The position numbers were made by a program, and so were the translations under genes. A DNA stretch of 57,008 nucleotides from Thermococcus sp. (GTDB taxonomy: Archaea; Methanobacteriota_B; Thermococci; Thermococcales; Thermococcaceae). The notes below the pieces were generated by a model. It saw nothing but the letters and a program-made list of their open reading frames with translations, made no database searches and was not told the origin of the DNA. Shown here in pieces: positions 1 through 19,816 of this stretch. Each line of letters opens with the position of its first letter. Within the stretch, counting starts at the first letter, position 1. The stretch covers positions 1-57,008 of the forward strand of contig NZ_WANV01000024.1 in the NCBI RefSeq assembly GCF_015521605.1, given 5' to 3'.

Positions 1-1108
1 TGGTGGTCTCGGTGTCCCAGTAGTCGCCGGTTATGTTCTGAACCCACTCGAAGTAGCTGACGGTGACACCACCGGCGTTACAGAGGAAGTCCGGTATGAC
101 AAGGACGCCCTTCTCATGGAGGATCTCGTCGGCCTCCGGGGTGGTCGGACCGTTGGCGAGCTCTGCTACTATCTTGGCCTTGATCTTGTCGGCGTTGTCC
201 TTGGTGATGACGCCTTCGATGGCGCTCGGGGCGAGGACGTCGACCTCGAGCTCGAGGAGCTCCTCGTTGGTGATGTTAGTGGCTCCCGGGAAGTCCTTAA
301 CTGAGCCGTGCTCCCTCTTCCACTTGAGGACTTCGTCGGCGTTTATGCCGTCCTCCATGTAGATGCCGCCCTTGCTGTCGCTGACGGCGACGACCTTCAT
401 GCCGTACTCCTCGCTCATGATCTTGGCCATGTAGTAGCCGGCGTTACCGTAACCCTGGATGGCGATAGTCTTACCCTTGAGGTCCATTCCGAGGGCCTTG
501 GCCGCCTCACGGACGGTGAAGCTGGCACCCCTGGCCGTGGCGTCCATCCTCGCGACGATACCGCCGACACCGGGCGGCTTGCCGGTGATGATTCCGAAGC
601 TCGGAACCTTCCTCCTGCTGATGGCCTCGTACTCGTCCATCATCCAGGCCATGATCTGCGGGTTGGTGTAAACGTCGGGGGCCGGAATGTCAGTGTAGGG
701 ACTGATGATGTCGTAGATGGCCCTTATGTAGTTCCTAGCGAGCCTCTCCTTCTCCCTCTCGCTGAGCTCCTTCGGGTTGACGATGATACCACCCTTACCT
801 CCACCATAGGGGAGGTCAACAACGGCGACCTTCCAGGTCATCCAGGTGGCGAGGGCCTTGACGGTGCTGAGGGTCTCGGCCGGGTGCCACCTGATTCCAC
901 CCTTGGTCGGACCGCGGGCCCAGTTGTGCTGAACGCGGAAACCAGTGAAAACCTTGACAGAACCATCGTCCATCTCGAGCGGAACTGAGACCTCAACAAT
1001 CCTCATGGGCTTCTTGAGCCACTCAAGGGCCTCTTCGCTTATGTCCATGAACTGGGCAGCCCTCTCGAGCTGCTGAACGGCCATCTCAAACGGGTCAATC
1101 TCGACCAT
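1..1108 (-). CDS. gdhA: Glutamate dehydrogenase, C-terminus cut by window edge
   Basis: Cytosolic hexameric enzyme that interconverts glutamate and 2-oxoglutarate plus ammonium using NAD(P). The reading frame begins [18 protein letters not shown] and 369 codons lie inside the window. Visible family motifs are the substrate-binding [11 protein letters not shown] and PYGGGKGGI segments with their lysines, and the Rossmann dinucleotide motif [11 protein letters not shown]. The start at 1108 follows GGTGGTAAGG, a good ribosome-binding site. A TATA box lies about 50 bases upstream. The frame shows no break. Thermococcales use this very abundant enzyme in peptide catabolism. Function is secure; only the last part is missing. 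Confidence 0.97.
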
Positions 1109-1159
1109 CCTTACCACCTCGGGTTTCGGTAATTTGCGATAAGCCCTTAGGCATTTGCA

Positions 1160-1167: not shown

Positions 1168-1359
1168 CCTTTCGCCAAAGGAGGCAGGAGAACGGTTAAT
1201 TTTAAACAAAAAGTTATGTACGGAAATTTTCGGCGAAAAGAAAATATCTGCCGAAATTTTGGGACAAAAACAGGACTGTACATCCAAGATTTTTTATACA
1301 TTGGAGAACATAAAGGAGCACCACTGAATAAAAATGTATGAAATCATATTGAAACGGGG

Positions 1360-1420
1360 GCCCTCAGCGAGAAGTCGGTCATCACCCATCAGATCACTCT
1401 CGTTCCAATCATCGGGCACC
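1360..1420 (-). ncRNA. Probable box C/D guide sRNA
   Basis: On the minus strand four boxes occur in the right order and spacing. A C-like box CCGATGA (1409-1415) keeps the GA, U and G of the kink-turn core. A 16-base guide follows (1393-1408), then D' box CTGA (1389-1392), a 3-base spacer, a consensus C' box GTGATGA (1379-1385), an 11-base guide (1368-1378) and D box CTGA (1364-1367). C to D spans 52 bases, the usual size in Pyrococcus and Thermococcus. Flanks GTGCCC and GGGCCC could close a short stem. By the D+5 rule the predicted 2'-O-methylation targets are the A in CGAGAAGUCGG and the fifth base (C) of AUCACUCUCGUUCC. I could not match these to rRNA or tRNA here. The C box is imperfect in the bulge positions. 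Confidence 0.6.
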
Positions 1421-1479
1421 ACTACAACTGGGGCGCCACAGGTTAAATATTTGATGGAGTGTGAAGGACGTATTTTTGT

Positions 1480-1637: not shown

Positions 1638-1718
1638 AATGCCTTGTCTTATACATAATGCCCCGCCGCAGTACACGGGGTGCTAAAGCCCATACATTTA
1701 AGAACGGGGGTGAATTGT

Positions 1719-3302
1719 GTGGAACAAAGAGATCAATGGGCAACTAAGCTTGGTTTGATTTTAGCTATGGCAGGTAACGCCATCGGTCTTGGTAACTTCT
1801 GGAGGTTCCCGTACCAGCTGGCTAGCAACGGTGGCGGCGCCTTCATGATACCGTACTTCATAGCCCTGCTCTTCCTTGGAATACCAGTGATGTGGATTGA
1901 GTGGACAACGGGAAGATACGGTGGCAAGTACGGCCACGGTACAATCGGCCCGATGTTCTACCTCATGGCCAGGGAAAGCCTGAAGCCAAAGACCGCCCTT
2001 ATCTTTGGTATCATCGGTGGTATGCTGGCTTTCTCGGTCGCTTCGCTGCTGAGCTCATACTACTACCAGGTCATCGGTTGGTCAGCGGCGTACACCTACT
2101 ACAGCCTCACCGGAGCCTACTTCGGCAAGGACACCGTCCAGTTCTTCCTGAGCTACGTGGCCAACACCAAAGCAGTCATATTCTTCTGGGGACTGACGAT
2201 GGTTCTCCTTGGAATAGCAGTCGGCCAGGGTGTCAGCAAGGGTATCGAGCGCTGGGTCAAGGTTATGATGCCGCTCCTCTACGTGTTTGCCATACTCCTT
2301 GTTATTAGGGCACTGACCCTCGGTTCACCAGTCAAGCCCGAGTGGAGCGCTATCAAGGGCCTTGAGTACATCTGGAAGCCGGACTTCCAGACCCTGAGCC
2401 AAAACTTCTTCAAGATCAGCCTTGCAGCGGCGGGACAGATATTCTTCACACTGTCCCTCGGTATGGGTATCATACACAACTACGCCAGCTACCTCGGTCC
2501 GGAAGATGACGTTGCCCTCAGCGGTCTTGCCACCGTTTCACTCAACGAGTTTGCGGAGGTCATCCTCGGTGGCTCACTCGCCATACCGATAGCCTTCGCC
2601 TACCTCGGCCCGGAGCAGGCTGTTAAGGGTGGCGTTGGTCTGGCCTACATGGCACTGCCGAACGTCTTCGCCAACATGCCAGCCGGTCAGATATTTGGTG
2701 CAATGTGGTTCCTGCTCCTCTGGTTCGCAGGATTCACCTCGGCCATAGCAACCTACAACTATCTTGTCGCCATGCTCGAGGAGGACATACACCTTGAGAG
2801 AAAGATCGGTACCTGGGTGGTCTGGATATTCCTGTTCATCCTCGGACTCCCGGTCGCCCTCGACAGCAGCCTGGCATACCTCAGCGAGCTCGACATGTGG
2901 GTCGGCAGCTACTTCCTCGTCCTGCTCGGTCTCTTCGACGTCATAGTGGCAGTCTGGCTCTTCAAGCCCGACAACTTCTGGGAGGAGCTCCACAAGGGAG
3001 CCTACATCAACGTGCCTAGCTGGTTCAAGCCCATCATGGTCTTCATAGCACCACTGTTCATGATAATCCTCCTCGCGGGGAACACCTGGGACTACATCCA
3101 GATGGGCGCATTCAGTGTCTCGGAGTCCTACGTTACCAACGTCCTTGGCTACGACTACACGCCCCAGGTCATCAGCCTCATCACCAGGGCCAGGATAGTG
3201 ATACTCATAATCCTCATCATCGGTGCCATCGAGGCGTACATGGCCATCAAGAAGAAGTACGGCGAGGAGCTTGCGAAGAACGAGGTGCTCATAAAGATCT
3301 GA
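1719..3302 (+). CDS. Sodium-dependent amino-acid symporter (SNF/NSS family)
   Basis: Membrane carrier of the neurotransmitter:sodium symporter family, expected to import an amino acid with Na+. The N-terminus reads WATKLGLILAMAGNAIGLGN followed by FWRFPYQ, the family's helix-1 signature with the unwound GNAIGLGN sodium/substrate site. About 11-12 hydrophobic helices follow. The chosen GTG start at 1719 has ribosome-binding site GGGGGTGA five bases upstream; the open frame extends further 5' but without such a site. A 36-residue membrane protein follows after 10 bases, as in the MetP-MetS type of bacterial transporter. The substrate cannot be told from sequence; hydrophobic amino acids such as methionine or alanine are plausible. 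Confidence 0.92.
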   Translation: MEQRDQWATKLGLILAMAGNAIGLGNFWRFPYQLASNGGGAFMIPYFIALLFLGIPVMWIEWTTGRYGGKYGHGTIGPMFYLMARESLKPKTALIFGIIGGMLAFSVASLLSSYYYQVIGWSAAYTYYSLTGAYFGKDTVQFFLSYVANTKAVIFFWGLTMVLLGIAVGQGVSKGIERWVKVMMPLLYVFAILLVIRALTLGSPVKPEWSAIKGLEYIWKPDFQTLSQNFFKISLAAAGQIFFTLSLGMGIIHNYASYLGPEDDVALSGLATVSLNEFAEVILGGSLAIPIAFAYLGPEQAVKGGVGLAYMALPNVFANMPAGQIFGAMWFLLLWFAGFTSAIATYNYLVAMLEEDIHLERKIGTWVVWIFLFILGLPVALDSSLAYLSELDMWVGSYFLVLLGLFDVIVAVWLFKPDNFWEELHKGAYINVPSWFKPIMVFIAPLFMIILLAGNTWDYIQMGAFSVSESYVTNVLGYDYTPQVISLITRARIVILIILIIGAIEAYMAIKKKYGEELAKNEVLIKI

Positions 3303-19689: not shown

Positions 19690-19816
19690 CTTGCACCCTC
19701 CTTCCGTGTTTGTGGTTCTCCCTTCCGGGAACATCCCGCGGGCTTGGCCCGCCCAGTCGGTCGAGGTTCGAGGTTGAGTTTTTAAGCCTTGCGGAGTAGT
19801 TAACGTGGTGAAACCG

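Follow-up and report, generated by a model that had tools for sequence, protein, structure and literature searches.

Helix 44 of archaeal 16S rRNA has been described as sparse in guided methylation (PMC4644070). For N. equitans sR17 and sR15, the same study (Figure 5) places the two guides of one sRNA on the two strands of a 16S helix, an arrangement that we likewise predict here for another RNA. A protein, TlyA, methylates C1409 in mycobacteria (PMC9403184). In T. kodakarensis, Table 1 of PMC9014305 lists ncRNA02, also named TKOcandSno66, as a circular RNA of 62 nt with its junction at 1257020-1257081 and a transcription start at 1257078. Small-RNA sequencing of the wild type gave 8,320 aligned and 139 circular reads for this RNA, compared with 6,342 aligned and 0 circular reads in a ligase knockout (PMC9014305).

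The window analyzed here, a stretch of 57,008 nucleotides of Thermococcus sp. DNA, encodes on its minus strand (1361-1416) a dual-guide archaeal box C/D sRNA of the family sR58. The family is already catalogued and the find itself is ordinary; the predicted target at the decoding site is the part worth testing.

Identity and anatomy of the RNA

The covariance model of the box C/D RNA sR58 (RF01308) scores window positions 1362-1416 on the minus strand at 75.9 bits against a cut-off of 55, with a full-length fit (model positions 1-55 of 55) and E = 5.9e-16 over the window. A genome-wide search revealed a single copy. Read 5' to 3' from window position 1416 down to 1362, the RNA is CCCGATGATTGGAACGAGAGTGATCTGATGGGTGATGACCGACTTCTCGCTGAGG. 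Its boxes, guides and spacing equal those of the Rfam family, from which it differs by a T in place of the G adjoining box D'; the same T occurs in 8 of 91 homologous loci from Thermococcales. All 91 loci were retrieved and parsed into one shared anatomy (72 distinct sequences), to which the counts in the following feature list refer.

1361-1416, minus strand: box C/D sRNA sR58, body plus 3-bp terminal stem (RF01308 at 1362-1416; base 1361 added by pairing in 91/91)
1358-1419, minus strand: inferred mature circular RNA of 62 nt, transferred by position from the T. kodakarensis circle
1414-1416, minus strand: terminal stem, 5' strand CCC (Watson–Crick with 1361-1363 in 91/91, covarying)
1406-1412, minus strand: box C ATGATTG, with the bulge base G at 1413 before it (register set by the stem; aligns with AUGAUGA of the sR1 model)
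1393-1405, minus strand: D' guide GAACGAGAGTGAT (core at positions 2-7 from D', window 1394-1399, invariant in 91/91)
1389-1392, minus strand: box D' CTGA (91/91)
1386-1388, minus strand: variable D'-C' spacer TGG (39 distinct versions among 91)
1379-1385, minus strand: box C' GTGATGA (RTGATGA in 90/91, ATGACGA in 1)
1368-1378, minus strand: D guide CCGACTTCTCG (paired positions 2-10 from D, window 1369-1377)
1364-1367, minus strand: box D CTGA (91/91)
1361-1363, minus strand: terminal stem, 3' strand GGG (pairs with 1414-1416)
1443-1454, minus strand: TATA-like element TCAAATATTTAA of the putative sRNA promoter
2-1117, minus strand: gdhA (glutamate dehydrogenase) open reading frame, downstream neighbor, kept in 87/91 loci
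1680-3302, plus strand: divergent transporter open reading frame, the other neighbor, with homologs at many relatives' loci

The layout therefore reads C ATGATTG -13- D' CTGA -3- C' GTGATGA -11- D CTGA. Boxes D, D' and C', the 11-nt D guide and the 3-nt D'-C' spacer lie at 1364-1392 as the original prediction had described them, and its proposal of a dual-guide archaeal C/D sRNA is borne out by the Rfam match, the anatomy and the conservation. Box C is a different matter. The prediction had placed it at 1409-1415 as CCGATGA, a sequence that is present there but in a register that leaves the bases before GATGA as a bulge, and in which the first stem pair outside would form in only 7 of the 91 loci. 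In all 91, Watson–Crick pairing joins the three bases before GATGA to the three that follow box D, in the combinations CCC/GGG (75 loci), TCC/GGA (11), ACC/GGT (3), GTC/GAC (1) and GCC/GGC (1). The outer pair thus occurs in four types (C-G 75, T-A 11, A-T 3, G-C 2) and the middle pair shows one compensatory change; mapped onto an approximate gdhA tree, the stem switches class roughly 11 times and never loses its pairs. This invariant pairing and covariation indicate that the three bases before GATGA are the terminal stem, that G-A-T is the bulge and that box C, shifted three bases downstream from its predicted position, reads ATGATTG. Consistent with this register, the AUGAUGA of the sR1 model falls on the window's ATGATTG when aligned by cmscan. 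The oddity of a CC in place of RU in box C vanishes with the shift, and the C-to-D' distance becomes 13 rather than 16. AUGAUUG keeps RUGAU of the consensus RUGAUGA and deviates in the last two bases, a variant that all of the curated sR58 family shares. The terminal stem comprises three pairs in the window RNA but just two in the Rfam model.

Box motifs are short, and in the register of the original prediction box C was a poor fit, so that a chance likeness within an intergenic gap might be considered. Given the E-value of 5.9e-16, the presence of the RNA in 91 of 94 genomes, the covarying stem and the expression of an ortholog, such a coincidence is vanishingly improbable; the conservation already refutes it.

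Conservation, expression and genomic setting

The sR58 model exceeded its cut-off in 91/94 Thermococcales genomes and in 0/14 control genomes. In a search of 115 genomes of the phylum, which gave 91 matches in all, none of the 21 genomes outside the order was over the cut-off. Three members of the order (G079, G082 and G085) had no match over the cut-off, a laxer search included; two of these assemblies are less than 85% complete and G079 is 95% complete, which makes a genuine loss possible in one lineage. In a pattern scan of genome contigs, the sR58 layout occurred, among the matches listed (mostly bacterial), only in Thermococcales or as the sR58 sequence itself, and the remaining listed matches that passed a loose architecture filter looked like chance.

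The prediction had named conservation of boxes and guides between species as a check, and both are kept across the 91 loci. Numbering starts at the respective D box; on this count, D' positions 2-7, D position 2 and D positions 4-10 do not vary in any of the 91 loci. These are 14 of the 15 paired guide positions, all with 0 parsimony changes, and the fifteenth, D position 3, has 3. Parsimony counts are rough, resting on a tree of 279 gdhA columns for 86 of the 91 loci, and amount to 7, 8, 16 and 17 changes at D' positions 1, 8, 9 and 10, 8 and 7 at D positions 1 and 11, 22-31 per position in the spacer, and a mean of 9.45 at gdhA third codon positions. D' position 12 also has 0 changes, for which the target gives no explanation. 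Paired guide positions that stay nearly unchanged across the order while the spacer varies freely point to a strongly constrained step in the making of the decoding site.

Expression and circularization are known from a relative in the literature. The sR58 match in G024, inferred to be T. kodakarensis KOD1, lies at 1257024-1257078 on the minus strand, which is the position of ncRNA02/TKOcandSno66, an expressed and circular RNA (PMC9014305). The T. kodakarensis circle overhangs the match by 3 nt at the 5' end and 4 nt at the 3' end. A small RNA-seq signal, another check that the prediction had named, is thus present for this ortholog at 62 nt; the available text of PMC9014305 gives no target for ncRNA02. 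The name sR58 is used in that paper for another locus (1947796-1947856), and the ortholog of Rfam sR58 is ncRNA02 at 1257020-1257081. A literature search for the name sR58 together with Pyrococcus or sRNA returned PMC9014305 alone, where, in the text available, it denotes that other locus.

In the window, sR58 sits in the gap between a minus-strand gene starting near 1117 and a divergent gene from 1680. We take the former to be gdhA, from its sequence and from the label given in the original prediction, and the latter is presumably an SNF-type transporter. A TATA-like motif lies 26-33 nt upstream of sR58 at 72 of the 91 loci. Among the 19 loci that lack it, five (L057, L074, L077, L084 and L089) sit 8-9 nt behind tRNA-Thr, which suggests a tRNA-Thr-sR58 co-transcript there, and nine from g3 genomes (L004, L006, L009, L011, L015, L022, L023, L026 and L081) overlap the end of an upstream open reading frame whose stop TGA lies inside the sRNA as the TGA of GATGA. 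The promoter arrangement therefore varies while the RNA stays. Elsewhere in the window are an eL15-Euryarchaeota ribosomal protein leader (RF03144, 40.2 bits, 19709-19751, minus strand) and seven tRNA genes between 37657 and 55777 (Arg, Gly, Arg, Leu, Pro, Leu and Ser).

Since gdhA lies directly downstream on the same strand at 87/91 loci, and some snoRNA predictions in 5' leaders may be cis-regulatory k-turns (PMC4247193), the element could instead be a kink-turn in the gdhA leader that regulates the gene via L7Ae rather than a free guide RNA. We regard this as very improbable: gdhA has a TATA-like element of its own near 1157-1169, between the RNA and the gene, the guides are invariant, and at 4 of the 91 loci no gdhA match lies alongside, while in T. 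kodakarensis the RNA is a discrete species of 62 nt (PMC9014305).

Predicted targets of the two guides

Complementarity was assessed in 8 copies each of 16S and 23S rRNA from 7 genomes other than that of the window, whose assembly contains only the 5' half of 16S, ending ahead of both guide sites, and has no 23S match. A 170-base query for the 3' part of 16S, run without a positive control, gave no match in that assembly. The 16S gene (G000, contig C15) is cut at the contig end and there is no 23S match, although the assembly is 99.69% complete.

The D guide forms 9 Watson–Crick pairs with GAGAAGUCG of 16S, corresponding to 1489-1497 in E. coli numbers, in 8/8 copies, and this site is unique in the 16S and 23S of 7/7 genomes. 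Complementarity to rRNA, which had also been proposed as a check, is thus found for this guide in the relatives' copies. D guide position 5 lies opposite A1492, which is flanked by pairs on either side, so that the N+5 geometry of a box C/D guide is present and methylation of A1492 is predicted from the sequence. The E. coli numbering was verified at six anchors of Table 4 in PMC7005279, with a constant offset of 12. Shuffled D guides found a 9-pair Watson–Crick match somewhere in 518 of 5000 cases, and the D match taken alone is therefore only moderately unlikely by chance; when sites are ordered by duplex energy, the first segment to cover this one comes 6th among 4490. Other D-guide sites in 16S, near 1400-1420, were listed for G013 and G004 only. 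The A1490 pair is lost in the 7 of 91 loci whose D guide carries C at position 3, and the same seven have G at D' position 8. In these loci the D' guide gains a pair with C1412 while the D guide loses that with A1490, as if the strands swap pairing.

For the D' guide, the original prediction had envisaged a 14-nt target. No whole match is found, and the guide is both conserved and complementary only at positions 2-7 from D'. Full-length complementarity (13-16 nt) to rRNA was absent from the 16S and 23S of the 7 genomes, in which the longest Watson–Crick run is 6. These six pairs are formed by the core with 16S UCACUC (E. coli 1406-1411), which puts C1409 at position 5. UCACUC is unique in the 16S and 23S of 7/7 genomes, and both guide sites occur in all 8 copies of 16S. 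By helix geometry, we take 1406-1411 and 1489-1497 to face each other as the two strands of helix 44 at the decoding site. About one chance match to a six-base core would be expected in 16S and 23S together. The UCACUC site is on the strand that faces the D site, and only 8 of 4096 six-mers would match that 13-nt facing stretch; random draws matched it in 596 of 200000 cases. The core predicts methylation of C1409, although the target is ambiguous with tRNA-Asp.

This ambiguity raises a second assignment, in which the D guide acts on 16S A1492 and the D' guide on tRNA-Asp(GTC), with C38 as the N+5 base, or on 23S UUCGCUC. In 10/10 genomes, the anticodon loop and stem of tRNA-Asp(GTC) contain GUCACUCC, the very sequence of 16S 1405-1412. 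The tRNA scan (ARAGORN) covered 50 entries from 30 of 44 genome tRNA loci and the window; loci may overlap, and coverage is perhaps incomplete. TTCGCTC occurs in the 23S of all 7 genomes and beats the 16S site by energy for the window's own D' guide. For three versions of the D' guide, the first segment to cover the 16S site comes 37th, 28th and 6th among 4490, which indicates that it is not the best D' site by duplex energy. In addition, PMC7668247 quotes a Lowe-lab prediction that P. furiosus tRNA-Asp undergoes C/D-guided methylation at U35. However, the N+5 rule does not point to U35 for sR58, and methylation of U35 was undetected in P. furiosus tRNAs according to the available part of that paper. 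The 23S site also requires a wobble at an invariant position: D' position 4 is T in 91/91, which pairs with the A of 16S but only wobbles with the G of 23S. The 16S site, by comparison, exactly faces the D target, a placement expected by chance in about 2-3 of 1000 cases. An engagement of D' elsewhere is hence the less probable assignment, if a serious one. Two further D' candidates were rejected, namely 23S GTCGCTC, which is absent from some of the 7 genomes, and tRNA-Glu(CTC), which shares 7 bases partly over variable guide positions.

The decoding-site reading and known systems

Among the universal decoding bases is A1492, which inspects the codon-anticodon helix. Taking the pairing to both 16S strands as the preferred assignment, we propose a pathway in which sR58 would be transcribed from its own promoter as a dual-guide box C/D sRNA, and its C/D kink-turn and C'/D' loop would recruit L7Ae, Nop5 and fibrillarin, as in the box C/D pathway outlined in PMC4644070. 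A fibrillarin gene is present in the window's genome (340 bits). The D guide would anneal to the 3' strand of helix 44 at 1489-1497, which would put A1492 at the fifth base upstream of box D, where fibrillarin methylates the ribose, and the short D' core would position C1409 by annealing to the facing strand (1406-1411). While both guides are paired, the sRNP would keep the two strands apart in pre-16S and methylate one or both; its release would let the decoding site close. We give this two-guide explanation at the decoding site, with methylation of A1492/C1409 and a role in folding, a probability of roughly 0.6. The D side of the pairing is clear, and the D' side comprises 6 pairs with a rival tRNA target.

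Two-strand pairing, read together with the proposal for N. equitans sR17 and sR15 in PMC4644070, suggests that the sRNP keeps the end of helix 44 open during maturation. The full version, in which one sRNP pairs with both 1406-1411 and 1489-1497, ribose-methylates both A1492 and C1409 and keeps the site from closing before a guided step late in 30S maturation, is tentative, and we consider it less likely than not.

Evidence against the methylations comes from P. abyssi. G004, inferred to be this species, carries sR58. A structure of the P. abyssi 30S subunit combined with mass spectrometry reported Am373 and Cm1376 as the 2'-O-methyls outside its acetylcytidine table, and the list, in the part of PMC7005279 available, has neither Am1461 (= A1492) nor Cm1383 (= C1409). 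This leaves room for a chaperone role without lasting methylation, where sR58 would pair with both strands of helix 44 and leave little or no methyl on either base. Chaperone roles for two-strand sRNAs have been proposed (PMC4644070), the D' duplex is short, and methylation of the A1492 ribose might impede its contact with the codon-anticodon helix, toward which A1492 and A1493 flip out (PMC9403184). Ribose methyls may be missing from a cryo-EM list, though, and the D guide places A1492 in the N+5 geometry between flanking pairs, with position 5 invariant in 91/91; a predominantly chaperone function thus appears unlikely, but it deserves weight beside the reading with methylation.

If the target is true, an order-wide sRNA would bracket the decoding site in these hyperthermophiles. 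T. kodakarensis, in which the ligase-gene knockout has already been made (PMC9014305), would allow a direct test. For P. furiosus, GEO holds RiboMeth-seq data according to PMC7758197. The literature searched names no decoding-site target for sR58, and older Pyrococcus lists (Gaspin 2000, Omer 2000 and the Lowe-lab database) may already print it.

Among known systems, the nearest parallels differ in place or in agent. The helices concerned are 28 and 30 for N. equitans sR17 and sR15 (PMC4644070), whereas for sR58 the prediction is helix 44, at its decoding-site end. In S. acidocaldarius and N. equitans an sRNA site is predicted at 16S A1408, and in M. maripaludis at G1494; both positions fall within the same helix 44 internal loop, but these are neighboring nucleotides and single sites, and the available text of PMC4644070 names neither A1492 nor C1409. 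The bacterial methyltransferase TlyA(II) modifies the ribose of 16S C1409, the very ribose predicted for the D' guide; in contrast to sR58, it is a protein enzyme that works without a guide RNA and modifies 23S C1920 as well (PMC9403184).
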